Source of the DNA: Tragulus kanchil
Lineage: Eukaryota; Chordata; Mammalia; Artiodactyla; Tragulidae
NCBI GenBank assembly: GCA_022376925.1
Contig: JAIOJX010000025.1
Span: 96,065,608 to 96,129,607 of the forward strand
Length of the DNA stretch: 64,000 nt
Direction of reading: 5' to 3'
In this document: positions 8,709 through 63,850 of the stretch, piece by piece
Layout: each line of letters opens with the position of its first letter
Numbering within the stretch: the stretch's first letter is position 1
Made by a program: the position numbers and the translations under genes
Notes under the pieces: model-generated
The model's input: only the letters and a program-made list of their open reading frames with translations
What the model was told of the DNA's origin: nothing
The model's database searches: none

Positions 8709-11084
8709 GTGATTGTGTAAAACTGAGAATTGAAAAGATGTTGGCGAGGACAAAAAGAACTAGTAATAACCTAGAAAATAAAAGATCCTCAATGTATGTG
8801 ACTTTGAATTTTTATCTTTGCTTATCCATTATCTGTAATAGTCTCTAGAATGGAAGAGGATCTCAGTGAGTGCTTACTGAATGAATGGATAAATTAATAA
8901 TGGATAATAATTACTTTCTGCATTCCTTCACCCAACAGTCCCTTGAACATAGTTTTGTAAAAGCATATTGTTTACTTAATCATTTGTTAACCTGTTTTTA
9001 TTAGTCAGATTTCTTAGTTTTCAAAAACAGAAATTAAATTTAGATTTGTTTGATTAAAGTAGGGAATTTATTAAGATTCTGAAAAATTCCAGGTGTTAAC
9101 TTTTGTCATTGAATGAATCCAGGTACTCAAAAACAATCTGTTTCTCTGTGTCTCTTACCATTGCTTTCCTCTTGGCTATTTCTAAGAGGTTAATTCTTAG
9201 GTTAGATCTCTCCAAATGCTTGGTCAAAGTAACCATGAGTAGTTAATAGACTTAATCCCCAAGATTAGCAGCACCTCTTTTTTATTAGCTACTCCAAAAT
9301 ACACAGCTTATTCGAAGTTTACTGACTTTTATCGACCTCTTGAGCCAATTATTGGGCTCAGGGCAATAGAATACTCTGATTAAGTAGACCTGGGTCACAT
9401 GACCACCTCTAGACCCATGGGTCAGCCTCATTCAAAGGACACGAACCCCATATCAGAGAGACTTCCTCAAAGGGCACTATTACCAGAAAAACGAAATGTG
9501 GATGATCCAGAAAGGCAAAACCAAATAGCACTTTATTGAAAAAAATTCACCTACTTGACCCTGATCTCTATTAGAAACATGAATATTCCTCCAGATAAGC
9601 CTTTCAAACAGAAAAGAGTGTTTGAGATTTCTTCTTAAATATGACTATGTATATTTCCTTATATCTCATCTCCCATCTTTCTAACTTCTTGACGTGTAGT
9701 TGGTAGACCAGCTCTGTTCAGTAGAAATATAATGTGAGACACAAATGTAAGCCCATGTTTACAATTTTAAATTTTCTAGTAGTCATATTTAAAAAGTAAA
9801 AGTGAAATTCATTTTAAAAATATATTTTATTTAATCCAAAAATTTAAAACACTGTCACTTTAACATATGATCAATATAAAAGTATTAATGATATATTGTG
9901 ATGGTAAAACTGAGAATTGAAAAGATGTTGGCGAGGACAAAAAGAACTAGTAATAACCTAGAAAATAAAAGATCCTCAATGTATGTGACTTTGAATTTTT
10001 ATCTTTGCTTATCCATTATCTGTAATAGTCTCTAGAATGGAAGAGGATCTCAGTGAGTGCTTACTGAATGAATGGATAAATTAATAATGGATAATAATTA
10101 CTTTCTGCATTCCTTCACCCAACAGTCCCTTGAACATAGTTTTGTAAAAGCATATTGTTTACTTAATCATTTGTTAACCTGTTTTTATTAGTCAGATTTC
10201 TTAGTTTTCAAAAACAGAAATTAAATTTAGATTTGTTTGATTAAAGTAGGGAATTTATTAAGATTCTGAAAAATTCCAGGTGTTAACTTTTGTCATTGAA
10301 TGAATCCAGGTACTCAAAAACAATCTGTTTCTCTGTGTCTCTTACCATTGCTTTCCTCTTGGCTATTTCTAAGAGGTTAATTCTTAGGTTAGATCTCTCC
10401 AAATGCTTGGTCAAAGTAACCATGAGTAGTTAATAGACTTAATCCCCAAGATTAGCAGCACCTCTTTTTTATTAGCTACTCCAAAATACACAGCTTATTC
10501 GAAGTTTACTGACTTTTATCGACCTCTTGAGCCAATTATTGGGCTCAGGGCAATAGAATACTCTGATTAAGTAGACCTGGGTCACATGACCACCTCTAGA
10601 CCCATGGGTCAGCCTCATTCAAAGGACACGAACCCCATATCAGAGAGACTTCCTCAAAGGGCACTATTACCAGAAAAACGAAATGTGGATGATCCAGAAA
10701 GGCAAAACCAAATAGCACTTTATTGAAAAAAATTCACCTACTTGACCCTGATCTCTATTAGAAACATGAATATTCCTCCAGATAAGCCTTTCAAACAGAA
10801 AAGAGTGTTTGAGATTTCTTCTTAAATATGACTATGTATATTTCCTTATATCTCATCTCCCATCTTTCTAACTTCTTGACGTGTAGTTGGTAGACCAGCT
10901 CTGTTCAGTAGAAATATAATGTGAGACACAAATGTAAGCCCATGTTTACAATTTTAAATTTTCTAGTAGTCATATTTAAAAAGTAAAAGTGAAATTCATT
11001 TTAAAAATATATTTTATTTAATCCAAAAATTTAAAACACTGTCACTTTAACATATGATCAATATAAAAGTATTAATGATATATT
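8709..11084. repeat. tandem duplication 1 (about 1.19 kb unit)
   Basis: Copy 1 is 8709-9897 and copy 2 is 9898-11084, at a constant offset of 1187 after the first bases. They look identical except at the very start of copy 2, where 'gtgattgtg' has become 'gtgatg'. There is no spacer between copies. Most of the unit (8717-9700) is sequence I cannot assign to a family. Confidence 0.95.
9700..9897. mobile_element. MER-type DNA transposon fragment (hAT-like), cut by duplication 1
   Basis: 'ctctgttcagtagaaatata', then 'ttttaaattttctagtagtc', then 'ttttatttaatccaa' match, in order, a common non-autonomous mammalian DNA element whose ends read 'tgtccaatagaaatat'. It is broken at 9897. The complete version runs in copy 2 from about 10887 to 11200, ending 'atcatgttggacaaagca'. 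The family name (MER5/MER3 group) is uncertain. Confidence 0.5.
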
Positions 11085-11200
11085 TACATTATTATTTCTA
11101 TTTTCTTTGAAATTCTTTGGGTGTTTTACACTTGCAGCAAATTTTAATTTGAATTAGCCACATATGGATGGAAGCTATCATGTTGGACAAAGCATTTATA
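10887..11200. mobile_element. MER-type DNA transposon (hAT-like), full copy
   Basis: The same element as at 9700-9897, here continuous across the duplication end at 11084 into unique sequence ('acacttgcagcaaattttaa', 'gaattagccacatatgg'). That continuity shows copy 2 joins the true downstream flank. Confidence 0.5.
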
Positions 11201-12224
11201 GGCTATGAAAGCTATTATATTCTATTAAGTGAAGTCTTTCTTTTCCCCCATCGAAACCAGCTTCCTCTCTTAAAACCCTTCTATTTCCATTCTAATCATA
11301 TTTCCACCTCCAATCAAATAGTTCAATGCATCAAGTAGGACAATGTTAATTAATTCACAGTCTTACGATTTTGAAAAGGGAATAAAAAAAGTGTTCACAT
11401 GTTTCTACTTTTCAGGAATGAGAGCTGAAATAAAATGGCAAATCACTTTGGTGCTTTTATTCAGCGTGAGTTAAAGCAATGTGGAGCAGATGATCACATC
11501 TTGATGACAATTATGGTATGACTTGGCAGAAAGAAGTGAAGAAGAAATTTGGCCTGGTGCTATTAAATAGCTGCCCAGATAGGTTCTACAAGAAATAGAA
11601 AGAGTGAGAAGAATCTAATTACCCACACGCAGATAACGAAATAGTTGCATCATGTTGTTGGGGGACTCTTAATTGCTAACGTAGAATACCTGTTAGCACA
11701 TCTTTATTTCTTAAAGAAGTCTGATTTGCACATACTTTTGAGCATAAATCTTCAGATTTACTTTTTTTGTATGTTTAAAAAGTAGGCTTTTTTTCTATTA
11801 TGAATCCCTTGATCCAAGGGTTTATTTTGGCACCTTGACGATTACGCAAAACTTACTGCTGAAGCAGCCTTTTCTTTTAAAGCATTGGTTTCCAAGCACT
11901 CTAAAAAAGATAAAAAATAAAATAAAATAAAAAGCCTCCAAAATGTCAACTACTTTGGGGTGGATTTTGTATGATTTTCTCAGTTCAAGCAAAGCTGCAG
12001 TATATATAAAAAATGTGACAGAATTTTATTTTGCAAATTTAGTATCATTAGAGTTTATATGCAGCTATAAATTACCATTCAGTTTTCACAGAAATATGTT
12101 AAACAACTTGCATTTATATACACTGGGTGACTTAATTTTAAAATGACATTACTTTAGATTTGTCCCTTATCATAAAATGTATCTTTTAGTTGGAAAATAA
12201 TACCCCACACATAAAAATTCAATA
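11201..12224. other. unassigned sequence
   Basis: No repeat family recognised. An A-rich run at 11900-11940 could be a decayed poly-A tail but no element body is evident beside it. Confidence 0.35.
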
Positions 12225-12879
12225 AACATTTTGGGCATTTAGTGTTTTTCAAGTGCAGCACTGGACTTGAAGTCACAAAACTTATTCCCATGATCATGAC
12301 ATATGTTTTTAGTGTTTGATGCACACTATTTGTAGACCTTACTTTTAGAAATTAAATCTTAATTTTCCTCTAAAGACCATGTCCTCTATTGTTCTCAGTT
12401 TATCTGCGTCCTGTGGAATTGGCTCCCTCTCCTGACTGCAGACTTGAGCAGGTGAGTCTGGACTAGCCATTCAGAACACTGCATCCCCTAGCATAGTAAC
12501 TGGCACAAGAATGGACACATTAAGTAGTCAGGGCCAATGAGACTCAGTGAAGTTTGGGATAGACCTGCTCTTTTCCATTAAATGTGCAACAACCATTTTG
12601 TGATTCTACATGATGTTTGAGAATGAAACTACCACAGAGGAACAGAGCTCACAAAGGGAGAGAGGAAAGCCACGTCCTGTAATGAGCTTTGTCTAAAGCC
12701 AATAACCTTGGACAAAGGAATAAAAGTAGAGAATAAGCTCAGTAAGCTCAATGGAAGTAGTGAGTTGGAGGGGAGGGAAGATGTCAGAAGAAGTCTTCTA
12801 GTCAGATAATACTAGACCAAAGGCAGCTACAGCAGAATAAAAGAAGAAAACCTCAGTTAGCTCTGAGAAAACATAGAAT

Positions 12880-13065
12880 GACAATAATAGAGTGATCAGA
12901 GAAGAGGCTAGAGAAAGAGGCAAGGGACAGATCACAGAAGATCTTATCCTTTAGGTTAAGGACCATCACATAGAGGTTGGCAGGATTACTGACATATTTT
13001 AAGCAGGGAGTGACATGGTCATATTTGTTTTGTAAACACCATTTTAAAAGTGCTTTATTTAAGTA
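12880..13065 (-). mobile_element. L2 LINE fragment (first copy)
   Basis: 'agagtgatcagagaagaggc', 'ggttaaggaccatcacatag' and 'gcagggagtgacatggtcat' match the antisense L2 3' region in order (the 'gagcagaggagtgacatgat' landmark). It is repeated at about 13975-14155 by duplication 2. Confidence 0.5.
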
Positions 13066-13139
13066 AGCACTTAATTAATTAGAACAATACCTGCGATATA
13101 ACATTGAATGTGTGGGGACACTTATTTTTTTGGGAAATC

Positions 13140-13316
13140 ACTTTAAATTTACTTTTTTTTAAATCGAAGGATAATTGCTTTACAGAGTTATGTTGGCTCC
13201 TGCCAGATATCAACATGAATCAGCCATAGGTATATATATGTCCCCTTCCTATTGAACCCTCCTCTCACCTTTCTCCCCATTCCACCTCTTTCGGTTGTTA
13301 CAGAGCCCCTAGGTTT
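13140..13316 (-). mobile_element. L1 3' end, antisense, first (cut) copy
   Basis: A T-run and 'ggataattgctttacagag' are followed by 'aacatgaatcagccatagg', which is the antisense L1 3' UTR end seen in ruminant L1s. It is cut at 13316 by the duplication junction. Confidence 0.75.
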
Positions 13317-14234
13317 ACTAACATTCTTGGGCATTTAGTGTTTTTCAAGTGCAGCACTGGACTTGAAGTCACAAAACTTATTCCCATGATCATGACATAT
13401 GTTTTTAGTGTTTGATGCACACTATTTGTAGACCTTACTTTTAGAAATTAAATCTTAATTTTCCTCTAAAGACCATGTCCTCTATTGTTCTCAGTTTATC
13501 TGCGTCCTGTGGAATTGGCTCCCTCTCCTGACTGCAGACTTGAGCAGGTGAGTCTGGACTAGCCATTCAGAACACTGCATCCCCTAGCATAGTAACTGGC
13601 ACAAGAATGGACACATTAAGTAGTCAGGGCCAATGAGACTCAGTGAAGTTTGGGATAGACCTGCTCTTTTCCATTAAATGTGCAACAACCATTTTGTGAT
13701 TCTACATGATGTTTGAGAATGAAACTACCACAGAGGAACAGAGCTCACAAAGGGAGAGAGGAAAGCCACGTCCTGTAATGAGCTTTGTCTAAAGCCAATA
13801 ACCTTGGACAAAGGAATAAAAGTAGAGAATAAGCTCAGTAAGCTCAATGGAAGTAGTGAGTTGGAGGGGAGGGAAGATGTCAGAAGAAGTCTTCTAGTCA
13901 GATAATACTAGACCAAAGGCAGCTACAGCAGAATAAAAGAAGAAAACCTCAGTTAGCTCTGAGAAAACATAGAATGACAATAATAGAGTGATCAGAGAAG
14001 AGGCTAGAGAAAGAGGCAAGGGACAGATCACAGAAGATCTTATCCTTTAGGTTAAGGACCATCACATAGAGGTTGGCAGGATTACTGACATATTTTAAGC
14101 AGGGGAGTGACATGGTCATATTTGTTTTGTAAACACCATTTTAAAAGTGCTTTATTTAAGTAAGCACTTAATTAATTAGAACAATACCTGCGATATAACA
14201 TTGAATGTGTGGGGACACTTATTTTTTTGGAAGT

Positions 14235-14560
14235 CACTTTAAATTTACTTATTTTTAAATCGAAGGATAATTGCTTTACAGAGTTATGTTGGCTCCTGCC
14301 AGATATCAACATGAATCAGCCATAGGTATATATATGTCCCCTTCCTATTGAACCCTCCTCTCACCTTTCTCCCCATTCCACCTCTTTAGGTTGTTACAGA
14401 GCCCTGGTTTGAATTCCCTGAGTCATACAGCAAATTGCCATTGGCTATTTTACATATGGTAATGTAAGTTTCCATGTTACTCTCTCCATATATCCCACCC
14501 TCTCCTTCCTCCCCCACCAACTCTACCATGTTCAAAAACAGGTTGTGGATTGGGTTCACC
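14235..14560 (-). mobile_element. L1 3' UTR, antisense, second copy
   Basis: It runs from the T-rich start through 'aacatgaatcagccatagg', 'gtccccttcctattgaacc', 'gagtcatacagcaaattgcc' and 'atatcccaccctctccttcc'. This is the reverse complement of the ruminant L1 3' UTR. The open frame at 14386-14574 on the minus strand is UTR sequence, not a gene. The third copy is at 15285-15610. Confidence 0.75.
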
Positions 14561-14669
14561 TGCAGATGCCTCATTCTGGGATCTGTGTCTCTTCAGGGTA
14601 TGCTCTTATCATGAGATGACAGATAGGTATGAGGGCAAACAAGACAACATGCATTTAAAGCCTTTCATT

Positions 14670-15008
14670 GGGCTTCCCTGGTGGTCCAGTGGGTGGGGAC
14701 ACCGCCTTGCAGTGCAAGGGGCGCCGCTTCTATCCCTGACCTGGGAAGATCCCATGTGCCGCGGAGCAGCTAGACTGATGTGTCCAATTACTGAGCCTGA
14801 GCTCTGGAGCACGTGTGCCCAGAGCTGGTGCCCTGCGACAACAGAGGCCACTGCGATGGGAGGCTCACATTGGCCAGAGAACAAAGATGGATGAAACTGA
14901 ATAAATGAAAGACCAATAGAAGTGGCCCGCCCGCCCCCTTCCCTCCCCAACCCACACCCCCGCCAAAATAAATAAATAAATAAATTCTAAAAAAAAAAAA
15001 GAAAAAAG
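14670..15008 (+). mobile_element. tRNA-derived artiodactyl SINE (CHR-like) with target-site duplication
   Basis: It has the head 'gggcttccctggtggtccag', 'tgtccaattactgagcc' middle, 'agaacaaagatggatgaaac', an (aaat)n stretch and an A-rich tail. The target-site duplication 'aaagcctttc' is at 14657-14666 and 15009-15018. Open frames on both strands (14550-14894, 14609-14950) lie wholly or mainly in it and are not genes. Confidence 0.9.
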
Positions 15009-15284
15009 AAAGCCTTTCCTTATGTCACATTAGCAACCGTTCCATTGGTTAAATCGAGTCAAGTCCAATGTCAATAGAAAGGATGTATATTCTGCACACA
15101 ATGAACTATGGCAAGAGAGTGGTAAAGAGGCAGATGAACTGTGAGCCAATCATACTATCTACCACAGGTATCAATGGCTATTGAAAACCACTTTTTTTGC
15201 TTTATTTAAGTAAGCACTTAATTAATTAGAACAATACCTGCGATATAACATTGAATGTGTGGGGACACTTATTTTTTTGGAAGT

Positions 15285-15610
15285 CACTTTAAATTTACTT
15301 ATTTTTAAATCGAAGGATAATTGCTTTACAGAGTTATGTTGGCTCCTGCCAGATATCAACATGAATCAGCCATAGGTATATATATGTCCCCTTCCTATTG
15401 AACCCTCCTCTCACCTTTCTCCCCATTCCACCTCTTTAGGTTGTTACAGAGCCCTGGTTTGAATTCCCTGAGTCATACAGCAAATTGCCATTGGCTATTT
15501 TACATATGGTAATGTAAGTTTCCATGTTACTCTCTCCATATATCCCACCCTCTCCTTCCTCCCCCACCAACTCTACCATGTTCAAAAACAGGTTGTGGAT
15601 TGGGTTCACC
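15285..15610 (-). mobile_element. L1 3' UTR, antisense, third copy
   Basis: Third copy of the same L1 3' UTR, produced by duplication 3. It agrees with the second copy wherever the first differs. Confidence 0.75.
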
Positions 15611-15719
15611 TGCAGATGCCTCATTCTGGGATCTGTGTCTCTTCAGGGTATGCTCTTATCATGAGATGACAGATAGGTATGAGGGCAAACAAGACAACAT
15701 GCATTTAAAGCCTTTCATT

Positions 15720-16056
15720 GGGCTTCCCTGGTGGTCCAGTGGGTGGGGACACCGCCTTGCAGTGCAAGGGGCGCCGCTTCTATCCCTGACCTGGGAAGAT
15801 CCCATGTGCCGCGGAGCAGCTAGACTGATGTGTCCAATTACTGAGCCTGAGCTCTGGAGCACGTGTGCCCAGAGCTGGTGCCCTGCGACAACAGAGGCCA
15901 CTGCGATGGGAGGCTCACATTGGCCAGAGAACAAAGATGGATGAAACTGAATAAATGAAAGACCAACAGAAGTGGCCCGCCTGCCCCTTCCCTCCCAACC
16001 CACACCCCCGCCAAAATAAATAAATAAATAAATTCTAAAAAAAAAAAAGAAAAAAG
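15720..16056 (+). mobile_element. tRNA-derived SINE, duplicate of the copy at 14670
   Basis: Same SINE including the same target-site duplication (downstream copy 16057-16066), so it is not an independent insertion. Small differences sit in the C-rich stretch at about 15965-16010. Confidence 0.9.
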
Positions 16057-16240
16057 AAAGCCTTTCCTTATGTCACATTAGCAACCGTTCCATTGGTTAA
16101 ATCGAGTCAAGTCCAATGTCAATAGAAAGGATGTATATTCTGCACACAATGAACTATGGCAAGAGAGTGGTAAAGAGGCAGATGAACTGTGAGCCAATCA
16201 TACTATCTACCACAGGTATCAATGGCTATTGAAAACCACT

Positions 16241-16515
16241 ATTATTCTCCCTAAATTACTTGCTTAATTCCATTACAGAGGAACACTACCTTTGTTTATT
16301 TTTCAGGCAAATACCTAAATTTAGTTAAGATCACATACATTTAAGAAAAAAGGCCACGTAGTAGAATAATAAAGCAATAGTACCTAGTAGTACTTTATAT
16401 GAAGCAAGCACTTGGTAAATATTTGAATGAAAAAGTAAATGAATGAGTGAATAAAAATAAACTAGTTTTTCAGAAGGGAGCACTCATATCAGAAAGGTTA
16501 AAAAATATTCTTCCA
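16241..16515. other. unassigned sequence
   Basis: AT-rich sequence between duplication 3 and the next SINE. Nothing recognised. Confidence 0.4.
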
Positions 16516-16844
16516 GGGCTTCCCTGGTGGTCCAGTGGGTAAGGACACCGCCTTGCAGTGCAAGGGGTGCTGGTTCGATCCCTGGCCTGGGAAGATCCCA
16601 TGTGCCGCGGAGCAGCTGGACCGATGTGTCCAATTACCAAGCCGGAGCTCTGGGGCGCACGCGCCCAGAGCCGGTACTCTGTGACAACAGAGGCCACCAC
16701 GATGGGAGGCCCACATGGGCCAAAGAACAAAGATGGATGAAAATGGAGAAATGAAAGAACAATGGAAGTGGCCCGCCAGCTCCCCTCCCTCCCCACCCCA
16801 CCCCCACCAAAAAAAATAAATAAATAAATCTTAGAGGAGAAAAA

Positions 16845-16870
<26 letters not shown>
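16516..16870 (+). mobile_element. tRNA-derived artiodactyl SINE (CHR-like)
   Basis: Same family as at 14670, with less decay: 'gggcttccctggtggtccag', 'tgtccaattaccaagccgg', 'caaagatggatgaaaat', an (aaat)n stretch, an A-run and (ta)n to about 16876. A probable target-site duplication is 'tattcttccag' upstream against 'tatattccag' downstream. Open frames on both strands here are SINE sequence. Confidence 0.85.
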
Positions 16871-16875
<5 letters not shown>

Positions 16876-17164
16876 TTCCAGATAATTGAGAGTTTCAGAG
16901 TTACACATGAAAATGTACCTTATCTGTCCTGTTTTTGTTCTCCTGTTAATTGAAGTTGTTCAGTGACTATATTTATTTTCATCCTTAAAATATATACAAG
17001 GGCAATTTAAAATTGTTTTTTGCATTAAAAATATCTACCCTGAAGGATAATTTACTTGAAAAATTTAGGATTTCATAATATAGCTGCTTTAGAATTTAAA
17101 TAGAAAATGTTTCATATTGGTAAGTTTATAAAAACAAATTTTTTGAAAATTTGGCGTCTTTTTA

Positions 17165-17412
17165 CTTAATTTTTATTTATTTATTTTTCATCCACTTTTA
17201 TTCTTGGGCCTGTGTGGGCCTTCCATTGCAGTGGCCTCTCTCATTGCAGAGAACTGGCTCTGGGTGCATGTGCTCCAGAGTGCTGGCTGGTGGTTGGACA
17301 CAGCGATCCAGCTGCTCCGCAGCATGCCGGATCCTCCGGGTCCAGGGGTCAAACCGGTGCCCCTTGCACTGCAAGACGAACTCTTTATCTACTGCACCAC
17401 CAGGGAAACCCC
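17165..17412 (-). mobile_element. tRNA-derived SINE, antisense (first copy)
   Basis: This is the reverse complement of the CHR-like SINE: T-rich start, 'tcatccacttttattcttgg', 'tgtgggccttccattgcagt', ending 'ctgcaccaccagggaaacc'. The 140-residue open frame at 17151-17573, repeated exactly at 18303-18725, is this SINE plus flank and not a gene. Confidence 0.85.
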
Positions 17413-18316
17413 TAAAGTTTTATCAGCTATCTCACTTTAAAAGAATTGGCCTGAAATATATGAAAAAATTCAGCCATAGAGGTGACTTTTTGTGTCTTTG
17501 TAGGACTACATTTAGCTTCAGTTTAAGCCTGGGTTTGCAAACGTCCATAAATTTGAAAGTATTTTCACAATAATTTTTTTCTATAAAAAGTTTTAAAATA
17601 ATTATTATTAACTAGTAAATTTTGTTTTAAATAACATCTAATTAAACTCTTAGGTGAAGATGAAAAATAAAAAATGCCATTTGGGTCAGCACCATGGATT
17701 TTATTCGTGAAATGAGGCCAACTGAATGGCAGCTTTGGTGATTTTAGTGATCTCTGTAATGTTAATGGAATGCAAGTCTGTATTGGTGGTAGCGTATCTA
17801 TTATAAAGTGCAGTTTGGTTTTACCATCTTGTTTATTTACCTAAAAACTTTGTTCAGCCTGCAGATGAGAGACCATTAGTGGAGACTATTAATGAGATCT
17901 ATACTCACCCTGGTCTGAATATACCTCATTGTCCCCTAGACCACTAATATCTGTGTTTTTAAACCAGCTATTTTTCCTTGCGATGTGCCTATGATAGAGA
18001 CATGGAAAGATCATACAGATGGGCGAAGAAAGTTTTTGTTGTGGGATGTTTCAGGTTTAGGAAGCCTCTATTCTTGAGAGTTTAGATCTCAGGAACAAGC
18101 TTGCTATTCACAGTTTGCAAAGATTTATTTTCATCCTTAAAATATATACAAGGGCAATTTAAAATTGTTTTTTGCATTAAAAATATCTACCCTGAAGGAT
18201 AATTTACTTGAAAAATTTAGGATTTCATAATATAGCTGCTTTAGAATTTAAATAGAAAATGTTTCATATTGGTAAGTTTATAAAAACAAATTTTTTGAAA
18301 ATTTGGCGTCTTTTTA

Positions 18317-18564
18317 CTTAATTTTTATTTATTTATTTTTCATCCACTTTTATTCTTGGGCCTGTGTGGGCCTTCCATTGCAGTGGCCTCTCTCATTGCA
18401 GAGAACTGGCTCTGGGTGCATGTGCTCCAGAGTGCTGGCTGGTGGTTGGACACAGCGATCCAGCTGCTCCGCAGCATGCCGGATCCTCCGGGTCCAGGGG
18501 TCAAACCGGTGCCCCTTGCACTGCAAGACGAACTCTTTATCTACTGCACCACCAGGGAAACCCC
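18317..18564 (-). mobile_element. tRNA-derived SINE, antisense (duplicate)
   Basis: Second copy of the SINE at 17165, inside copy 2 of duplication 4. Confidence 0.85.
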
Positions 18565-19572
18565 TAAAGTTTTATCAGCTATCTCACTTTAAAAGAATTG
18601 GCCTGAAATATATGAAAAAATTCAGCCATAGAGGTGACTTTTTGTGTCTTTGTAGGACTACATTTAGCTTCAGTTTAAGCCTGGGTTTGCAAACGTCCAT
18701 AAATTTGAAAGTATTTTCACAATAATTTTTCTATAAAAGTTTTAAAATAATTATTATTAACTAGTAAATTTTGTTTTAAATAACATCTAATTAAACTCTT
18801 AGGTGAAGATGAAAAATAAAAAATGCCATTTGGGTCAGCACCATGGATTTTATTCGTGAAATGAGGCCAACTGAATGGCAGCTTTGGTGATTTTAGTGAT
18901 CTCTGTAATGTTAATGGAATGCAAGTCTGTATTGGTGGTAGCGTATCTATTATAAAGTGCAGTTTGGTTTTACCATCTTGTTTATTTACCTAAAAACTTT
19001 GTTCAGCCTGCAGATGAGAGACCATTAGTGGAGACTATTAATGAGATCTATACTCACCCTGGTCTGAATATACCTCATTGTCCCCTAGACCACTAATATC
19101 TGTGTTTTTAAACCAGCTATTTTTCCTTGCGATGTGCCTATGATAGAGACATGGAAAGATCATACAGATGGGCGAAGAAAGTTTTTGTTGTGGGATGTTT
19201 CAGGTTTAGGAAGCCTCTATTCTTGAGAGTTTAGATCTCAGGAACAAGCTTGCTATTCACAGTTTGCAAAGTATGTTTGTGACAGCTATTAGTATCTAAT
19301 GTCTGACTTTATTTTGAAAAGGTAGGTTTATGGGGTAGGCAGCAAGGAAACTTTGTGTGAAGTCAAATTTCTAAGCTTACAAAATGTTACCACAATCTAT
19401 GAATTTTTGGGCATGTTCAGATGCCAAAGAGGATACCTGTTGTGTACAGAGGACCTCCTTAAATTCACTACAAACTGTGACTCTGACTAACAGCTTTCTA
19501 TCTAGCTAGGGTTCAAAAAGAATGAAACACGGCCAAAGTACCTGTTAAGTCAATAGTAAGCAGGGTGTTTAT

Positions 19573-19576
<4 letters not shown>

Positions 19577-19608
<32 letters not shown>
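19577..19608. repeat. (TG)16 microsatellite
   Basis: Thirty-two bases of pure tg repeat. The duplicated copy at 20655-20686 has the same length. Equal length argues for a very recent or artefactual copy, because dinucleotide arrays mutate fast. Confidence 0.95.
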
Positions 19609-19614
<6 letters not shown>

Positions 19615-19682
19615 CAGAGGGGCTCTGTGCTTAATCAGCCTAACAAAGTGAAAAGATACTAGGGATGTATAGTGGATGTATA

Positions 19683-20137
19683 TTGGTTCCATAGGGCTAT
19701 TGTAAAAAACTCCACAAACTGGGTGACTTAAAATAAGTGTGCTATCACATAATTCTGGAGGTCAGGAAACAGAAATCAAGATATTCACATGGCCATTCCT
19801 TCCCTGAAACTTGTAGGAGAATTCTCCCTTGTCTCTTCCTAGCTTCTGGCAATTTTTTGGAAATCTTTGGAGTTTCTTGCTTGCAACTGCATCACTCCAA
19901 TCTTTGTCTTTATTGTCACATGGCATTCTCCCTGTGTGTCTCTGTCTTTGCATGGATGCCTTGTAAGGACACCAGTCATTCTGGATTATAGGCCCACCAA
20001 CTGCCGTATGACCTCACTTTAACTTAACTATTACATCTGCAATGACCCTAATTCCAAATATGGTTACATTCTGAAGTAATTGGGGGCTAGGACTTCAGCA
20101 TCTTTTTTTGTTGGGGACACAAATCAACTCATAACAG
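19683..20137 (-). mobile_element. MLT1-type LTR (ERVL-MaLR), antisense (first copy)
   Basis: 'gaggtcaggaaacagaaatc', 'gacaccagtcattctggatt', 'cctcactttaacttaacta' and 'ttacattctgaagtaattgg' lie in the reverse-complement order of an MLT1 solo LTR, ending near 'caactcataac'. No internal retroviral gene is present. Open frames in it (19737-19991 plus, 19762-19953 minus) are not genes. Confidence 0.75.
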
Positions 20138-20650: not shown

Positions 20651-20654
<4 letters not shown>

Positions 20655-20686: not shown

Positions 20687-20692
<6 letters not shown>

Positions 20693-51449: not shown

Positions 51450-53703
51450 CAGATCCTTATTCGTTACTGAAGCTTTCCTTATTTATTTTACACATTATTT
51501 TTTGCATTCAGTCATCACCTCTTTTGTTTAACTTGTTTTTACCCTCCACTTGACAGACCAAGGCATATATAACTTGGATTTTACTGCTATTTCAGAACTC
51601 AATGAGGTCTCAAAAGACACTTGACCCTTTCCCCATACTCCTCTCCACTAGTCATACTCCTATCTTTCTATTTTAAAAAATCTTATTTGTTGATTGATTC
51701 ATTCATTGATTGTTTCATTTATTCTTATATTCATTTACTCAGTAGGCACATTGAACATCTATAATTTGCTAGAAACTGTTCTAGATCCTGAGGATATGGC
51801 AATGAACAAGGTATTGTTGTTTAGTGCAAGGAGCTTATATCTCTAGTGGCATTATGGTTGCATCAATATAATTATAATAGTATGTTGCACAGGGATTAAA
51901 AACTATCAGGGGTAAGGCAATGGAGAAGGGAGGTTCTTATTTCACATAGGGTATTAAGGAAGAAACATTCAAACCCAGAATTGAATGAAGTGAAGATGAG
52001 AGCCCTGTGAATATCTATGGGAGGAATATTCACAGAGATGGGCATATATTTGGAAAGTTTGAGGAATAACAAAGAGGCCAGTATGCTACAGGGCAGTAAA
52101 TAAAAACAATAGTTAGATCTGAGGCATAGCAAAGGCAGCTCATGTACGACTTTGAGTTTATAGAAAAAACTCTGGATTTTTTTTCTAAGTGTGGAGGGAA
52201 CAGTGCTGTCTTAGAGCCCATTCACGCAGTGCGTGAGATCAGACTGTTAGTATCTCTTCCCAACCTTGTTTTTGGTGATTTCACACAGGTTATTAAACAT
52301 TGACAAGTATAAAGCTGGATGAGAAGCTCTTGAACTCTTAAGAGGAGGGTGTGGCACGATCTCTATTTATCATTCAGAAAGATCACTCAGGTTGCTCTAT
52401 GGAGAACAGTGCACAAGAGGCCAAGAGTGGCAGCAAGGAGACCAGTTAGCAGCTTACGGCCACAGTTCTGGGAGTGTTGATGCTGGCGTAGAGTTTGGGA
52501 ATAGCGGTATGTCATGCAGGAAATAGCAGAATGTAGGATATATTTCCGTCTTTTCATTTGTTCATGTTCAAGGGTTTCAGATTTATCGTTACTGAAGCTT
52601 TCCTTATTTATTTTACACATTATTTTTTGCATTCAGTCATCACCTCTTTTGTTTAACTTGTTTTTACCCTCCACTTGACAGACCAAGGCATATATAACTT
52701 GGATTTTACTGCTATTTCAGAACTCAATGAGGTCTCAAAAGACACTTGACCCTTTCCCCATACTCCTCTCCACTAGTCATACTCCTATCTTTCTATTTTA
52801 AAAAATCTTATTTGTTGATTGATTCATTCATTGATTGTTTCATTTATTCTTATATTCATTTACTCAGTAGGCACATTGAACATCTATAATTTGCTAGAAA
52901 CTGTTCTAGATCCTGAGGATATGGCAATGAACAAGGTATTGTTGTTTAGTGCAAGGAGCTTATATCTCTAGTGGCATTATGGTTGCATCAATATAATTAT
53001 AATAGTATGTTGCACAGGGATTAAAAACTATCAGGGGTAAGGCAATGGAGAAGGGAGGTTCTTATTTCACATAGGGTATTAAGGAAGAAACATTCAAACC
53101 CAGAATTGAATGAAGTGAAGATGAGAGCCCTGTGAATATCTATGGGAGGAATATTCACAGAGATGGGCATATATTTGGAAAGTTTGAGGAATAACAAAGA
53201 GGCCAGTATGCTACAGGGCAGTAAATAAAAACAATAGTTAGATCTGAGGCATAGCAAAGGCAGCTCATGTACGACTTTGAGTTTATAGAAAAAACTCTGG
53301 ATTTTTTTTCTAAGTGTGGAGGGAACAGTGCTGTCTTAGAGCCCATTCACGCAGTGCGTGAGATCAGACTGTTAGTATCTCTTCCCAACCTTGTTTTTGG
53401 TGATTTCACACAGGTTATTAAACATTGACAAGTATAAAGCTGGATGAGAAGCTCTTGAACTCTTAAGAGGAGGGTGTGGCACGATCTCTATTTATCATTC
53501 AGAAAGATCACTCAGGTTGCTCTATGGAGAACAGTGCACAAGAGGCCAAGAGTGGCAGCAAGGAGACCAGTTAGCAGCTTACGGCCACAGTTCTGGGAGT
53601 GTTGATGCTGGCGTAGAGTTTGGGAATAGCGGTATGTCATGCAGGAAATAGCAGAATGTAGGATATATTTCCGTCTTTTCATTTGTTCATGTTCAAGGGT
53701 TTC
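51450..53703. repeat. tandem duplication 13 (about 1.125 kb unit)
   Basis: Copy 1 is 51450-52579 and copy 2 is 52579-53703. The start of copy 2 reads 'cagatttatcgtt' where copy 1 has 'cagatccttattcgtt'. Otherwise the copies appear identical. Copy 1 ends inside an antisense L2. Copy 2 continues into BovB. Confidence 0.95.
51690..52579 (-). mobile_element. L2 LINE, antisense (first copy)
   Basis: A long antisense L2: 'attcattgattgtttcattt', 'gaaactgttctagatcctga', 'gaaacattcaaacccagaat', 'gaggaataacaaagaggcca', 'gtgtggcacgatctctattt' and 'ggatatatttccgtc'. It is repeated from 52815 to 53703. Sequence from about 52298 occurs a third time at 54527. The rest of the L2 resumes after BovB at 54170 and 55274. 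Confidence 0.75.
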
Positions 53704-54162
53704 TCATGGCAAGAATACTGGAACATTTGCCATTCCTTTCTCCAGCAGACCACGTTTCATCAGAACTCTCCACTATGACCCATCTGTCTTGGGTGGCTCT
53801 GCACAGCATGGCTCATGGCTTCACTGAGTTATGCAAAACTCAGTGACAAGCTTCTTTGCTATGACAAGACTGTGATCCATGAAAGGAATCACATGAATGG
53901 GATGCTGAAACTGAAGCTCTAATACTCTGGCAACCTAATTCGAAGAGATGACTTATTGGAAAAGACCCTGCTGCTGGGAAAGACTGAAGGTGAAAGGAAA
54001 AGAAAGCAGCAAAGGATGAAATGACTAGATAGCCTCACCAACTCAACGGACATGAATTTGAGCAAACTTCAGAAGACAGTGACAGACAGGGAAGCCTGGA
54101 GTGCTGCTTTCCATGGGATCACAAAGAGTCCGACATAACTTAGGAACTGAACAACAACAACA
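53703..54162 (+). mobile_element. BovB LINE 3' end (first copy)
   Basis: 'ctcatggcaagaatactgga', 'ctatgacccatctgtcttgg', 'gaaaagaccctgctgctggg', 'atgaatttgagcaaacttca' and 'agggaagcctggagtgctgc' follow the ruminant BovB/ART2A 3' end in order, closing with 'gaactgaacaacaacaaca'. Only the 3' end is present, as is usual. It is inserted into the L2. The small frame at 53639-53827 is chance. Confidence 0.85.
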
Positions 54163-54169
54163 TGGATCT

Positions 54170-54325
54170 GTTTAGGACAGTGGATTCTGAAGAATTAAAT
54201 CAAGGGTGTGAGGTAAAGAGAGGAGTCAAGCATGACTTAATTTTTATTCAGAGCACCTGACTTAAAGATGGTGCTGATTACTGAGATGGGAAAGATTGGC
54301 AGAAGTGACAGGTTAGGGTAGGAAA
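54170..54325 (-). mobile_element. L2 LINE continuing after BovB (first copy)
   Basis: 'gtgaggtaaagagaggagtc', 'aagcatgacttaatttttat' and 'actgagatgggaaagattgg' are the next segment of the same antisense L2. The duplicate is at 55274-55429. Confidence 0.6.
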
Positions 54326-54806
54326 ATATATCCAACAGTTGTAGTTTGAATCTCTGTTTCCAGAGTAGAAAAACCTGAAGAACAAAGAAGAATAAATACT
54401 GCGAAGAATAAGCATTGTTAAAGACCATACAAAGAGGAGGGAAGTTGTCAATTGTCCAGTTTATTGTTGGGAACAAAGAACTGTAACTGAAATCCTTGAT
54501 GACAGATGGAGACTCTTGGGAACTTTCATTGACAAGTATAAAGCTGGATGAGAAGCTCTTGAACTCTTAAGAGGAGGGTGTGGCACGATCTCTATTTATC
54601 ATTCAGAAAGATCACTCAGGTTGCTCTATGGAGAACAGTGCACAAGAGGCCAAGAGTGGCAGCAAGGAGACCAGTTAGCAGCTTACGGCCACAGTTCTGG
54701 GAGTGTTGATGCTGGCGTAGAGTTTGGGAATAGCGGTATGTCATGCAGGAAATAGCAGAATGTAGGATATATTTCCGTCTTTTCATTTGTTCATGTTCAA
54801 GGGTTT

Positions 54807-55266
54807 CTCATGGCAAGAATACTGGAACATTTGCCATTCCTTTCTCCAGCAGACCACGTTTCATCAGAACTCTCCACTATGACCCATCTGTCTTGGGTGG
54901 CTCTGCACAGCATGGCTCATGGCTTCACTGAGTTATGCAAAACTCAGTGACAAGCTTCTTTGCTATGACAAGACTGTGATCCATGAAAGGAATCACATGA
55001 ATGGGATGCTGAAACTGAAGCTCTAATACTCTGGCAACCTAATTCGAAGAGATGACTTATTGGAAAAGACCCTGCTGCTGGGAAAGACTGAAGGTGAAAG
55101 GAAAAGAAAGCAGCAAAGGATGAAATGACTAGATAGCCTCACCAACTCAACGGACATGAATTTGAGCAAACTTCAGAAGACAGTGACAGACAGGGAAGCC
55201 TGGAGTGCTGCTTTCCATGGGATCACAAAGAGTCCGACATAACTTAGGAACTGAACAACAACAACA
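54807..55266 (+). mobile_element. BovB LINE 3' end (duplicate)
   Basis: Copy of 53703-54162 in copy 2 of duplication 14. Confidence 0.85.
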
Positions 55267-55611
55267 TGGATCTGTTTAGGACAGTGGATTCTGAAGAATT
55301 AAATCAAGGGTGTGAGGTAAAGAGAGGAGTCAAGCATGACTTAATTTTTATTCAGAGCACCTGACTTAAAGATGGTGCTGATTACTGAGATGGGAAAGAT
55401 TGGCAGAAGTGACAGGTTAGGGTAGGAAAATATATCCAACAGTTGTAGTTTGAATCTCTGTTTCCAGAGTAGAAAAACCTGAAGAACAAAGAAGAATAAA
55501 TACTGCGAAGAATAAGCATTGTTAAAGACCATACAAAGAGGAGGGAAGTTGTCAATTGTCCAGTTTATTGTTGGGAACAAAGAACTGTAACTGAAATCCT
55601 TGATGACAGAT

Positions 55612-57026: not shown

Positions 57027-57552
57027 GCCTGGTAAGTTCATTAGGGTGGTTCAATGATTAACCAACATTATTCACAAACGCAGGTTTCCAGTGAGCAAGC
57101 TCTCAATCTGAAAGTCTCATTACTAATTTAAGATATAATTCAAAATAAAAATTTACTATTAATACAGTCAACTCATTACCATATAGGTACTCTCCATCCC
57201 TGGCTTTGAGTAAATATCATAGAGACAGAAGAAAGTTGAGAGAAATATTCTATGTAGAGATTGTCATTAAAGGGATATAATTTAAGTTTGCACTATTGTG
57301 TCCCTTATGATTTTGCCTGTGGGATACAGAAATTAACTGTAATGCTTCTCTAGCCAGACAAATTTGTTTTTTCTCAAGAACATGCATATATATGACTTCT
57401 ATCTTCACATTTTTTTTTTTTTTTGCTTATTGCTTCTGTAAGGGCAGACATCCCTACAGGTTCATATTTCATCTTTAAAACTTGTTTCTGCAAAATTGAC
57501 TTGCATTAGACTAAACCAGTCATGAGCTATTTGACTTTCCTTTAGCACTAAT

Positions 57553-57776
57553 ACAGGCTTCCCAGATGGTGCTTTTGCTAAAGAAGCCGTTTAGCCAATG
57601 CAAGAGATGTAAGAGAGAGATGCAAGTTCAATCCTTGGGCCAGGAAGATCCCCTGGAGTAGGAAATGACAACCCACTCCAGTATCTTGCCTGGAGAATCC
57701 CATGGACAGAAAAGCCTGGCAGGCTACAGTCCATAGGATCACAAAGAGTCAGACATGACTGAAGAGCCTTATTACA
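57553..57776 (+). mobile_element. Bov-tA SINE with 11-bp target-site duplication (first copy)
   Basis: 'caggcttcccagatggtgct' to 'cacaaagagtcagacatgac' in sense order, with an extra 'gatgtaagagagagatgcaa' repeat in the head. The target-site duplication 'ttagcactaat' is at 57542-57552 and 57777-57787. Confidence 0.92.
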
Positions 57777-58596
57777 TTAGCACTAATGGAAACAGAATGG
57801 TATGGTAGATAATACCTTAAAGATTTAGCTTATGTAAAACCCTATTATAGAAAAGCCTAAGAGTTATAGGTAAAATATGAATCAGAGAAGGAGTGGTTCA
57901 AGTTTTGGCTTGTTCCTATATCTAGGCAATGGACATTTATAAAGTGCTTTTCAGAAGTCATTCATTATGTTTGGTTCTGGATGCATCTTGCCCCTTTACC
58001 AGGATTCTCCTTTGGGCAAATCACTGGGGCTTTCAAACCTCAGTTTCCTATCTGTAAAAAAAATATTTGGGCCTGGTAAGTTCATTAGGGTGGTTCAATG
58101 ATTAACCAACATTATTCACAAACGCAGGTTTCCAGTGAGCAAGCTCTCAATCTGAAAGTCTCATTACTAATTTAAGATATAATTCAAAATAAAAATTTAC
58201 TATTAATACAGTCAACTCATTACCATATAGGTACTCTCCATCCCTGGCTTTGAGTAAATATCATAGAGACAGAAGAAAGTTGAGAGAAATATTCTATGTA
58301 GAGATTGTCATTAAAGGGATATAATTTAAGTTTGCACTATTGTGTCCCTTATGATTTTGCCTGTGGGATACAGAAATTAACTGTAATGCTTCTCTAGCCA
58401 GACAAATTTGTTTTTTCTCAAGAACATGCATATATATGACTTCTATCTTCACATTTTTTGTTTTTGCTTATTGCTTCTGTAAGGGCAGACATCCCTACAG
58501 GTTCATATTTCATCTTTAAAACTTGTTTCTGCAAAATTGACTTGCATTAGACTAAACCAGTCATGAGCTATTTGACTTTCCTTTAGCACTAATACA

Positions 58597-58820
58597 GGCT
58601 TCCCAGATGGTGCTTTTGCTAAAGAAGCCGTTTAGCCAATGCAAGAGATGTAAGAGAGAGATGCAAGTTCAATCCTTGGGCCAGGAAGATCCCCTGGAGT
58701 AGGAAATGACAACCCACTCCAGTATCTTGCCTGGAGAATCCCATGGACAGAAAAGCCTGGCAGGCTACAGTCCATAGGATCACAAAGAGTCAGACATGAC
58801 TGAAGAGCCTTATTACATTA
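58597..58820 (+). mobile_element. Bov-tA SINE (duplicate)
   Basis: Copy of 57553-57776 with the same target-site duplication and the same unusual head repeat, so not an independent insertion. Confidence 0.92.
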
Positions 58821-59049
58821 GCACTAATGGAAACAGAATGGTATGGTAGATAATACCTTAAAGATTTAGCTTATGTAAAACCCTATTATAGAAAAGCCTA
58901 AGAGTTATAGGTAAAATATGAATCAGAGAAGGAGTGGTTCAAGTTTTGGCTTGTTCCTATATCTAGGCAATGGACATTTATAAAGTGCTTTTCAGAAGTC
59001 ATTCATTATGTTTGGTTCTGGATGCATCTTGCCCCTTTACCAGGATTCT

Positions 59050-59115
59050 CCTTTGGGCAAATCACTGGGGCTTTCAAACCTCAGTTTCCTATCTGTAAAA
59101 TTAGAATAATATACT
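59050..59115 (-). mobile_element. MIR fragment, antisense
   Basis: 'gggcaaatcactggggcttt' and 'caaacctcagtttcctatct' followed by 'gtaaaattagaataata' match the antisense MIR core. The start is also present at 58006-58059, and the end is repeated at 60155. Confidence 0.6.
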
Positions 59116-61246
59116 TTATCTTGTTAAGAGGACCTATTTTAGTTTTCTTTTGGTTGCAAGTCCCAGACTCTCCTTATTTGACTTTAATCCAGCCAGTCAT
59201 TTAATAATTCAATGCTAATAGGAAGAGGCCTCAAAATCAAATCTTTGAAATCTTTTGCTTCTTATTTACTTTGATCCTTGACTCAAACTGCATTTCCTGC
59301 ATTTCCTGTGTTCCTGATAATGTGTCATCTAATGTTGTTGGTTGTTATGTAACATAAGATTTAAGATTTGGCCACTTGGGTTGACACTTGGTTTTGCCCT
59401 CCATCACTTCTTATAACCCTGATGTACTATAGCAGCTGATAAAACCTTGTCTGGTTCTGACATCCTATCTTGCAGCTGACCTGCTGATCTTTTGCCTTAG
59501 TTGGGCCTGCTCTGGCCTACTTTAAGGGAAAATTTCATAGGTGTAGTTGCAGCCTCATCGAGAGGGTACCAGCACGTGCTAGTGTGGTCATCAGGGCTCT
59601 GTTTCAATGGGGTCCAGGCAGGACCCTGGTCTTATGATAGAACTGGAGTCCTATTTAGAACTTATGGTAGAACCAGTTATATACTCACTCCCAAAGTGTT
59701 AAGACAATGCCATGGCTTGGTGGGTTTATGAGAGTTCAGGGCTTATCTTCATAGGCTGGATACAAATCTCATAGGGCTAACCTACTGTTTCTGTTTATTC
59801 TGGCATCTTAGTGGGGATAGATCAGAAAATAAGTGGCTGTTATACCAAAGGTTTCAGTGTTCAAGTTCACTTCAGAGTAGGAGGAAAGATAGATATTAAC
59901 ATTTTATAAACTATACAAAGGTAGGTGCCATCATTATCAACACTGTGTGACAAAGGCACACAACAGGTATGTGATAAATAATAGCCATTATTGCTTAAGT
60001 TTTAAAAATTTATTGATTGGTTAGTGGCTTGTATGTTTCTTACAAAAAGTTCTTATGTCTACTATACATTCTTGTCTTATTTCATAGCCTTATTTTTCTC
60101 TCCAGAGAGATCTGGCAAAGTTGTCTAGTGCTGGTGGTATGGTAGTTAGTACCATGGGGCTTTCAAACCTCAGTTTCCTATCTGTAAAATTAGAATAATA
60201 TACTTTATCTTGTTAAGAGGACCTATTTTAGTTTTCTTTTGGTTGCAAGTCCCAGACTCTCCTTATTTGACTTTAATCCAGCCAGTCATTTAATAATTCA
60301 ATGCTAATAGGAAGAGGCCTCAAAATCAAATCTTTGAAATCTTTTGCTTCTTATTTACTTTGATCCTTGACTCAAACTGCATTTCCTGCATTTCCTGTGT
60401 TCCTGATAATGTGTCATCTAATGTTGTTGGTTGTTATGTAACATAAGATTTAAGATTTGGCCACTTGGGTTGACACTTGGTTTTGCCCTCCATCACTTCT
60501 TATAACCCTGATGTACTATAGCAGCTGATAAAACCTTGTCTGGTTCTGACATCCTATCTTGCAGCTGACCTGCTGATCTTTTGCCTTAGTTGGGCCTGCT
60601 CTGGCCTACTTTAAGGGAAAATTTCATAGGTGTAGTTGCAGCCTCATCGAGAGGGTACCAGCACGTGCTAGTGTGGTCATCAGGGCTCTGTTTCAATGGG
60701 GTCCAGGCAGGACCCTGGTCTTATGATAGAACTGGAGTCCTATTTAGAACTTATGGTAGAACCAGTTATATACTCACTCCCAAAGTGTTAAGACAATGCC
60801 ATGGCTTGGTGGGTTTATGAGAGTTCAGGGCTTATCTTCATAGGCTGGATACAAATCTCATAGGGCTAACCTACTGTTTCTGTTTATTCTGGCATCTTAG
60901 TGGGGATAGATCAGAAAATAAGTGGCTGTTATACCAAAGGTTTCAGTGTTCAAGTTCACTTCAGAGTAGGAGGAAAGATAGATATTAACATTTTATAAAC
61001 TATACAAAGGTAGGTGCCATCATTATCAACACTGTGTGACAAAGGCACACAACAGGTATGTGATAAATAATAGCCATTATTGCTTAAGTTTTAAAAATTT
61101 ATTGATTGGTTAGTGGCTTGTATGTTTCTTACAAAAAGTTCTTATGTCTACTATACATTCTTGTCTTATTTCATAGCCTTATTTTTTCTCTCCAGAGAGA
61201 TCTGGCAAAGTTGTCTAGTGCTGGTGGTATGGTAGTTAGTACCATG
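59066..61246. repeat. tandem duplication 16 (about 1.09 kb unit)
   Basis: Copy 1 is 59066-60157 and copy 2 is 60155-61246, offset 1089. It overlaps duplication 15, so 'ggggctttcaaacctcagtt' occurs three times (58026, 59067, 60156). A T-run differs near 60092 against 61182. The unit is mostly unassigned and contains an exactly repeated 76-residue frame (59501, 60590) without protein signature. Confidence 0.95.
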
Positions 61247-61819
61247 AAAGAACTAGCTCATGTAAAACCTTAGGAACAGGGAGGCTCAAGATATTCCACC
61301 AAAATTTTTTTTTGGTTGAGGTATAAGCTAACTTTAAAATTTTAATCGGAACTGGGGGTTCAAGCTTTGACTCATTTAAATATCCAATCAACAAACATTC
61401 ATAAAATGTTCATTACTACTTACCATACCACCCAGTACTATCTAGAGTCCTTGATAAATAGCAGTTTATTCAGTGTATGGTGACTGGATATAGGAGTGGG
61501 AGAAGCCATGAATTCTTTCTATTAATCATCTTTATATGTTGTGTACAAATAATAGACTGGTCATGGTTTAGGCCTTCCTGGGAGAAAGTAATTTAATATA
61601 TGTTAATTCTACCTCACAAGCATTTTTTGAGAAAGATTAAATGTGTAGTTGTAACTCTGTTTCCTAAGGCTGACTAACTCTTTTTTTCCTTGGCTGGAAG
61701 ACTTGTTTATAAGCTGAACAATATTAATGACAATGTGTATCATTAATCATTACTCTAGCTTTGATTAAGCAAATATTTTAAGTTGCTCAATGTGTTTTTC
61801 TATTTACGCTTCTATTAAT

Positions 61820-61930
61820 GAAATCCTCTGTGATTGATCTTGGGCAAGTTAACTGCATTCTCTGAATCATAATTTCTTCACCTATGCTGTGTGGTCATGG
61901 TTAACTTTCATGACTATTATGATGGCTAAA
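61820..61930 (-). mobile_element. MIR SINE, antisense (first copy)
   Basis: 'gattgatcttgggcaagtta', 'actgcattctctgaatcata' and 'tcatgactattatgatggct' are in antisense MIR order. The duplicate is at about 62955-63065. Confidence 0.6.
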
Positions 61931-61944
61931 TGAAACCATGCAGT

Positions 61945-62475
61945 CCTTGAACAGGTATTTACAGAGTACCTCCTATGTGTCAGGCTCTGAGCCATCTCCC
62001 AAGGATACCATAATGAAGCAAATTTGACATTGTCCCTGCTTTCGTGGAAATAACAGTCTAGAGAGGGAAACAGACATTAAATAATACAGATTGCTATTTA
62101 ATTACAGTTGTGATCAGTGCTACCAAGGACCAGCATACTATGGAGAGTATGTTATTGAAACTGACCAAGATTGTAAAGTCAGGGAGGGAAGTTTCTCTTG
62201 GGAAGATGCAGAAGACTTGAGGATGAGAAAGAGTGAGAGGTGGGGAGGCCCACACTTCAGGACAAGGAAATAACATACTGTGAGAGGAGTTTGGTACCTT
62301 AATGCTGTGAGATTTCAGTGGACAAGAGTGCAAGGAATACCTGTGGGCTCAGGGAGTTGTTTTGGGTCCAATGGTACAGGGCTATTTAGGCTATAGTGAG
62401 GAATTCTGATGTTATCAAAGGGTAATAGAAAACAATGAAACATTTAAAGTAGATTAGAATTATATTTACTTCTTA
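61945..62475 (-). mobile_element. L2 LINE, antisense (first, cut copy)
   Basis: 'tttacagagtacctcctatg', 'tgtcaggctctgagccatct', 'ccctgctttcgtggaaataa', 'ggaagatgcagaagacttga' and 'gatgttatcaaagggtaata' are in antisense L2 order. The element is cut at 62479. Copy 2 (63081 on) carries it through to about 63850. Confidence 0.7.
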
Positions 62476-63080
62476 TTTTAATCGGAACTGGGGGTGCAAG
62501 CTTTGACTCATTTAAATATCCAATCAACAAACATTCATAAAATGTTCATTACTACTTACCATACCACCCAGTACTATCTAGAGTCCTTGATAAATAGCAG
62601 TTTATTCAGTGTATGGTGACTGGATATAGGAGTGGGAGAAGCCATGAATTCTTTCTATTAATCATCTTTATATGTTGTGTACAAATAATAGACTGGTCAT
62701 GGTTTAGGCCTTCCTGGGAGAAAGTAATTTAATATATGTTAATTCTACCTCACAAGCATTTTTTGAGAAAGATTAAATGTGTAGTTGTAACTCTGTTTCC
62801 TAAGGCTGACTAACTCTTTTTTTCCTTGGCTGGAAGACTTGTTTATAAGCTGAACAATATTAATGACAATGTGTATCATTAATCATTACTCTAGCTTTGA
62901 TTAAGCAAATATTTTAAGTTGCTCCATGTGTTTTCTATTTACGCTTCTATTAATGAAATCCTCTGTGATTGATCTTGGGCAAGTTAACTGCATTCTCTGA
63001 ATCATAATTTCTTCACCTATGCTGTGTGGTCATGGTTAACTTTCATGACTATTATGATGGCTAAATGAAACCATGCAGTC

Positions 63081-63850
63081 CTTGAACAGGTATTTACAGA
63101 GTACCTCCTATGTGTCAGGCTCTGAGCCATCTCCCAAGGATACCATAATGAAGCAAATTTGACATTGTCCCTGCTTTCGTGGAAATAACAGTCTAGAGAG
63201 GGAAACAGACATTAAATAATACAGATTGCTATTTAATTACAGTTGTGATCAGTGCTACCAAGGACCAGCATACTATGGAGAGTATGTTATTGAAACTGAC
63301 CAAGATTGTAAAGTCAGGGAGGGAAGTTTCTCTTGGGAAGATGCAGAAGACTTGAGGATGAGAAAGAGTGAGAGGTGGGGAGGCCCACACTTCAGGACAA
63401 GGAAATAACATACTGTGAGAGGAGTTTGGTACCTTAATGCTGTGAGATTTCAGTGGACAAGAGTGCAAGGAATACCTGTGGGCTCAGGGAGTTGTTTTGG
63501 GTCCAATGGTACAGGGCTATTTAGGCTATAGTGAGGAATTCTGATGTTATCAAAAGGGTAATAGAAAACAATGAAACATTTAAAGTAGATTAGAATTATA
63601 TTTACTTCTTATTTGACTCTGATAGCACTGTGGAAAAATGTGTAAAAGGGGTCCAGAGTGGATGCAGAGAAATCATGAGGAGGTCACAGTAGTTGTCCAA
63701 GTAAGAAATGCTGGTGCTTTGGGCTTAGGGACATGTCCGTGGAGATGGGGAGAAGGGATGCCCTGGGTATGGTAGGATAGGGAGAGCAAGGTTAAAGATA
63801 GTGCACAAGTTTTCTGGTACAGGTCACTGAGTGAAATGTGTTAGTGGTGT
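63081..63850 (-). mobile_element. L2 LINE, antisense (continuous copy)
   Basis: The second copy of the L2 passes the duplication end at 63614 and continues 'actctgatagcactgtggaa', 'gaggtcacagtagttgtcca' and 'agtaagaaatgctggtgctt', the expected next L2 segment. The paired minus-strand frames at 62094 and 63229 are decayed L2. Confidence 0.7.

Follow-up and report, generated by a model that had tools for sequence, protein, structure and literature searches.

False duplications, in which assembled sequence holds a locus more often than the genome does, have been divided by the Vertebrate Genomes Project (VGP) into heterotype duplications, which are allelic, and homotype duplications, which lie near contig boundaries or derive from sequencing errors (PMC8081667). 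In a homotype duplication a locus is assembled twice without any genomic duplication and the copies differ in consensus quality (PMC8081667, PMC9516828); as described there, those of the contig-boundary type are in many cases of roughly read length, and a gap separates the two copies after scaffolding. Homotype totals of 0.4–2.7% are given for older assemblies of three species (PMC9516828), and a figure legend attributes some homotype duplications of a hummingbird assembly to a bug in the FALCON algorithm (PMC8081667). Here we analyse 64,000 nucleotides (the window) of the chevrotain Tragulus kanchil assembly GCA_022376925.1, contig JAIOJX010000025.1, positions 96,065,608 to 96,129,607, in which stretches of about 1.1 kb of otherwise unrelated DNA stand twice, head to tail. 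These tandem pairs almost certainly arose during assembly, as an artefact that extends across the whole of it, and are not the product of a biological process.

The tandem pairs behave like a homotype duplication, but they fall outside the contig-boundary type, being gap-free at the window junctions, of one size and far denser. Whereas the copies of that type tend towards read length and are parted by a gap, here they measure about 1.1 kb and recur every few kilobases, and the window contains no N at all, so that its 17 junctions are all gap-free; we therefore set the contig-boundary class aside, since the gap expected between the copies is absent at these 17 junctions. The redundancy also differs, amounting to 34% of the 264 kb examined here against at most 2.7% of an assembly among the homotype totals tabulated for older and newer assembly versions of the three species (PMC9516828). 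The FALCON fault in the hummingbird assembly is similar in that software wrote one sequence twice, and it concerns a different program if the origin that we propose below is correct. At the level of titles and abstract openings we found no published account of an artefact of the present kind, though one may exist.

Tandem pairs in the window and across the assembly

Comparison of the 64-kb window with itself by megablast revealed 17 direct pairs arranged head to tail between positions 8708 and 63614, with aligned lengths of 1033–1190 bp, offsets of 1044–1189 bp and identities of 98.15–100% (Table 1). An earlier note on this DNA, made from the sequence alone, had listed 17 direct, adjacent and near-identical pairs; both the pairs and their coordinates were correct, and its figure of 18.8 kb of false sequence agrees with the sum of the offsets, 18,784 bp, which is 29.35% of the window. 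Judged by the BLAST bounds, the interval from copy A to copy B goes from a 7-bp overlap up to a 23-bp spacer. Two extra near-identical matches, 13051/15198 and 52298/54527, have offsets of 2.1–2.2 kb because consecutive units overlap and the DNA common to them is present in triplicate, and no inverted match of at least 200 bp was listed in this self-comparison. Chance is ruled out as a source of near-identity over a kilobase.

The window occupies 96.07–96.13 Mb of a 224-Mb contig in an assembly of 3.167 Gb and 32 contigs, of which 16 are of chromosome size (73–297 Mb) and 16 are small (0.19–10.7 Mb). To follow the pattern outwards, the window was joined with 100 kb of flanking sequence on each side, giving 264 kb, and pairs of at least 300 bp, more than 95% identical and 900–1350 bp apart were retained. 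Eighty-one pairs were found throughout this region, running past both ends of the window, with a mean offset of 1116 bp (SD 42, range 991–1228 bp) and an identity of 97.8–100% within a search restricted to more than 95%. Without the distance limit, the remaining rows were all 2.1–2.3 kb apart and came from overlapping units. For the offset and tile statistics, a pair interrupted by N was treated as one, and N stands between the BLAST-bounded copies at 2 of the 81 junctions, where it may represent withheld letters. The summed offsets account for 90,395 of 262,335 bp, that is, a redundant share of 34%. The earlier note had given the pairs an extent of 55 kb; they are indeed present there, but they are not confined to it, given the 81 pairs in 264 kb and their recurrence on other contigs of chromosome size. 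Seven 6-kb samples were taken at arbitrary round positions (on contigs C1, C2, C3, C5, C15 and C30, and on C8 at 200 Mb), and six of them (C2, C3, C5, C15, C30 and the distant C8 sample) carried at least one pair, complete or truncated at the sample boundary, with offsets of 1073–1176 bp.

A scan of the assembly for the homeodomain (PF00046), in which the best 150 of 439 candidates were scored, gave a view across all large contigs, and the counts that follow refer to those 150. Eighty-five of the matches form 44 same-strand pairs lying 1013–1203 bp apart (mean 1111, SD 37), and the bit scores of the two members differ by no more than 1 in 38 of the 44. When distances were sorted into 250-bp bins, the bin of 1000–1250 bp held 44 pairs and the adjacent bins 3 and 6. 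Such pairs occur on all 16 contigs longer than 70 Mb (C1–C8, C15, C17, C23, C26, C27, C30, C31 and C32), and 44 of about 106 homeodomain places are doubled. The effect on a gene could be followed in a 6-kb stretch of C31 (L037), which was picked for its homeodomain matches and in which copy A (1184–2292) and copy B (2298–3414) lie within zinc-finger/homeodomain coding sequence. The offset is 1114 bp at the start of the pair and 1120 bp between the homeodomain copies, neither value being divisible by three. One open frame stops about 15 bp into copy B, whose homeodomain sits in a long open stretch in a different frame; the tandem pair thus throws this coding stretch out of frame.

Distribution of the differences between copies

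Substitutions and indels were counted in 80 of the 81 pairs, the one left out containing N. Indels number 187, of which 114 are changes in homopolymer length, and substitutions 93; the copies are identical in 13 of the 80 pairs. Differences rich in indels and in homopolymer-length changes are the error profile of a noisy long-read consensus, whereas ageing duplicates accumulate mainly substitutions. The differences are also unevenly placed, since the outer 50 bp of the units hold 195 of 403 differing positions, against 37 expected if they were uniformly distributed.

Where consecutive units overlap, the same DNA occurs three times, closing one piece, lying within the following one and opening a third, so that a difference can be assigned to one of the three copies. 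We examined all 19 unit overlaps of at least 80 bp, trimming 8 alignment columns at each end. The piece-start copy alone deviates in 60 of the 87 differing columns, the piece-end copy alone in 26 and the interior copy alone in 1; taken as runs (n = 39), the figures for start, end and interior are 22, 16 and 1. In consequence, the piece-terminal copies hold 86 of the 87 columns and 38 of the 39 runs. Differences are present at 12 of the 19 sites and absent from 7, and a single site contributes 22 of the 87 columns. If the copies were real, each should carry a roughly equal part of the changes; the pattern seen is that of abutting pieces whose ends are of poor quality, and we know of no biological process that predicts differences private to the piece-terminal copies.

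Proposed origin and alternatives

The artefact reading draws on three observations, namely the one overlap size, the spread over the genome and the confinement of nearly all differences to the tile-end copies. Each consensus tile would begin by repeating the final ~1.1 kb of its predecessor, and concatenation would have left this shared overlap in place. An error of this kind should give a single overlap size whatever the length of the piece, and we find 1116 ± 42 bp, with a correlation of r = 0.04 between overlap size and the length of the following piece over the 81 pairs of the 264 kb. It should occur assembly-wide, and pairs are present in the 264 kb, in six of the seven samples and among the homeodomain matches; and errors should crowd at the ends of pieces, as they do both in the outer positions of the units (195 of 403) and in the three-copy columns (86 of 87). 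The earlier note had proposed that overlapping pieces were joined end to end without merging, and the uniform overlap, the genome-wide spread and the indel-dominated differences at piece ends all support this explanation. It had called the pieces contigs or reads. That they overlap is borne out, but they are unlikely to be ordinary contigs or reads: because tiles of 1.6–11.8 kb abut without N at the 17 window junctions, they are better taken as consensus units internal to the assembler.

Which assembler could produce such units? A tile starts with copy B of one pair and ends with copy A of the following pair. The median tile length is 2.8 kb; the shortest tile, 1607 bp, may be underestimated, as a neighbouring alignment stops at N. 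Twenty-one of 80 tiles measure 1.8–2.1 kb, about twice the overlap minus a few hundred bases, and the overlaps between successive units reach 388 bp. From this anatomy we consider the source to be probably a nanopore-read assembly of the wtdbg2/Redbean type in which neighbouring edge consensuses were left unmerged. Redbean/wtdbg2 splits reads into segments of 1024 bp, which are the vertices of its graph (PMC7730629), it operates with 256-bp bins (PMC11831799), and its consensus program is a separate one (PMC12037172). Vertices of fixed length, if shared by neighbouring edges of variable length, would give uniform overlaps of about 1 kb between tiles of differing length.

Each tile would then be an edge of the fuzzy Bruijn graph and each overlap a single vertex, a 1024-base read segment made of four 256-base bins, which the consensus would lengthen to about 1.1 kb if the raw nanopore reads had a net excess of deletions. 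The mean overlap of 1116 bp would correspond to 1024 raw bases only given a net read deletion of about 8%, and a net 8% of missing bases would suit nanopore reads better than PacBio continuous long reads. In wtdbg2 the consensus is built for each edge and then joined across the shared vertex, and in regular output these overlaps are merged. In the present assembly this merging may have failed or never run, leaving each vertex written twice. Fixed-length shared vertices combined with variable-length edges would explain how a uniform overlap can coexist with variable tiles.

Several results weigh against this reading or parts of it. By default, neighbouring vertices in wtdbg2 overlap by at most one 256-base bin, a limit of about 279 bp at consensus length, and the unit overlaps of up to 388 bp exceed it; the ends of a vertex are probably located only to about one bin. 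A rhythm set by the bins was sought among values below 7000 bp, which left 78 of the 80 tile lengths and 79 of the 80 spacings, and the outcome was no more than a hint; at the predicted period of 279 bp the statistic was 3.5 for tile lengths and 2.2 for spacings. When periods of 200–400 bp were scanned, the best period for tile lengths was 280 bp, close to the prediction, but 43% of 2000 jittered controls reached the same peak, and for spacings the best peak was reached by 86% of 2000 such controls. The name of the assembler appears nowhere in the material examined, and we hold the step to wtdbg2 to be probable. As regards the extent of the artefact, the homeodomain count lacks a normal mammalian genome as control, the 14 control genomes having given zero matches, and the sample from C1 (L023, C1:30000001–30006000) holds no tandem pair in its 6 kb. 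Since C1 does carry a homeodomain pair (C1:32473430 and C1:32474545), the density of pairs varies along the assembly.

Among the alternatives to unmerged wtdbg2 edges, the one that survives best is an artefact of the same kind made by another program or step, such as a long-read consensus stage, polishing or gap-closing in chunks, or short contigs that were scaffolded without merging. The sequence determines the kind of error and not the program behind it, and gap-free window junctions together with a uniform overlap of about 1.1 kb could come from any step that works with a fixed overlap. Nevertheless, we regard this source as unlikely. Chunking at a fixed size predicts evenly spaced junctions, whereas the pieces vary from 1.6 to 11.8 kb, and fixed-chunk polishing was downgraded for that reason; a single length is not to be expected of overlaps between ordinary contigs; and the anatomy seems to ask for a graph with vertices of fixed length and edges of variable length.

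Far less probable is an allelic (heterotype) false duplication, in which both haplotypes of each stretch would have been set side by side. This would likewise give adjacent near-identical copies (PMC8081667), but haplotype bubbles are not expected to have one fixed size, and the differences crowd at the unit ends and belong nearly all to the tile-end copies. We rejected it since the substitutions expected between alleles are not what distinguishes the copies, with 187 indels against 93 substitutions and 13 of 80 pairs identical.

Real duplication, by some novel process making ~1.1-kb tandem copies of unrelated DNA across a mammalian genome, has in its favour that the copies are present in the assembled sequence, but it is improbable in the extreme, as it would have to explain 34% of 264 kb, with every pair among those retained above 95% being 97.8–100% identical, double 44 of about 106 homeodomain places (best 150 of 439) while breaking a reading frame, and assign all but one of the 87 differing columns to the outer copies, and we rejected it because the copies show neither a spread of ages and sizes nor an even sharing of changes, the interior copy holding 1 of the 87 columns. 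The analyses made yielded no positive evidence for it.

Consequences and features of the window

As biology, the tandem pairs are almost certainly not a real feature, and they constitute a serious defect in a chromosome-scale mammalian assembly, about one third of the 264 kb examined being redundant. Because of this redundancy, the doubled homeodomain exons and the coding stretch thrown out of frame, this assembly would yield wrong gene counts, wrong segmental-duplication maps and a wrong genome size, and gene models built on it will be damaged, as at L037:1184–3414 on C31. If the sampled densities (34% of the sequence and 44 of about 106 homeodomain places) hold throughout, the true genome size would extrapolate to about 2.1–2.2 Gb instead of 3.17 Gb. 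Other assemblies could easily be screened for the signature, which consists of adjacent copies, an offset near 1.1 kb and differences towards the ends of pieces.

Table 1. Tandem pairs in the 64-kb window, interpreted as false duplications (positions in the window; unit overlaps and other details of single pairs in the last column).
Pair	Copy A	Copy B	Strand	Offset (bp)	Identity (%)	Remarks
1	8708-9897	9897-11084	.	1189	99.8	
2	12225-13316	13320-14410	.	1095	99.3	
3	14148-15192	15198-16240	.	1050	99.6	overlaps unit 2; ~263 bp in triplicate
4	16971-18122	18123-19271	.	1152	99.7	
5	19112-20194	20191-21273	.	1079	99.8	overlaps unit 4 by ~160 bp
6	23397-24497	24519-25624	.	1122	99.2	
7	28550-29669	29667-30787	.	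1117	99.9	
8	31327-32402	32396-33464	.	1069	98.2	first 51 bp of unit hold half of its differences
9	36077-37138	37162-38214	.	1085	99.2	
10	38352-39472	39468-40585	.	1116	98.8	one ~40-bp T-rich stretch carries most mismatches
11	44849-45984	45983-47118	.	1134	99.9	
12	47575-48653	48650-49733	.	1075	99.4	
13	51449-52578	52577-53703	.	1128	99.7	
14	53423-54507	54527-55611	.	1104	100	overlaps unit 13; 281 bp in triplicate
15	57027-58059	58071-59100	.	1044	99.6	
16	59066-60156	60155-61246	.	1089	99.9	
17	61339-62478	62475-63614	.	1136	99.6	

Rfam and tRNA scans of the window gave nothing bearing on the question of duplication. A SINE-like repeat of about 340 bp is present at 16515–16853, 14670–15007 and 35540–35826, with 86–89% identity between sites, and two of its copies begin with a weak tRNA match; it probably resembles the tRNA-Glu SINEs of cetartiodactyls. 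ARAGORN also predicted a candidate tRNA-Cys (gca), either a gene or a pseudogene, on the minus strand at 30957–31029.

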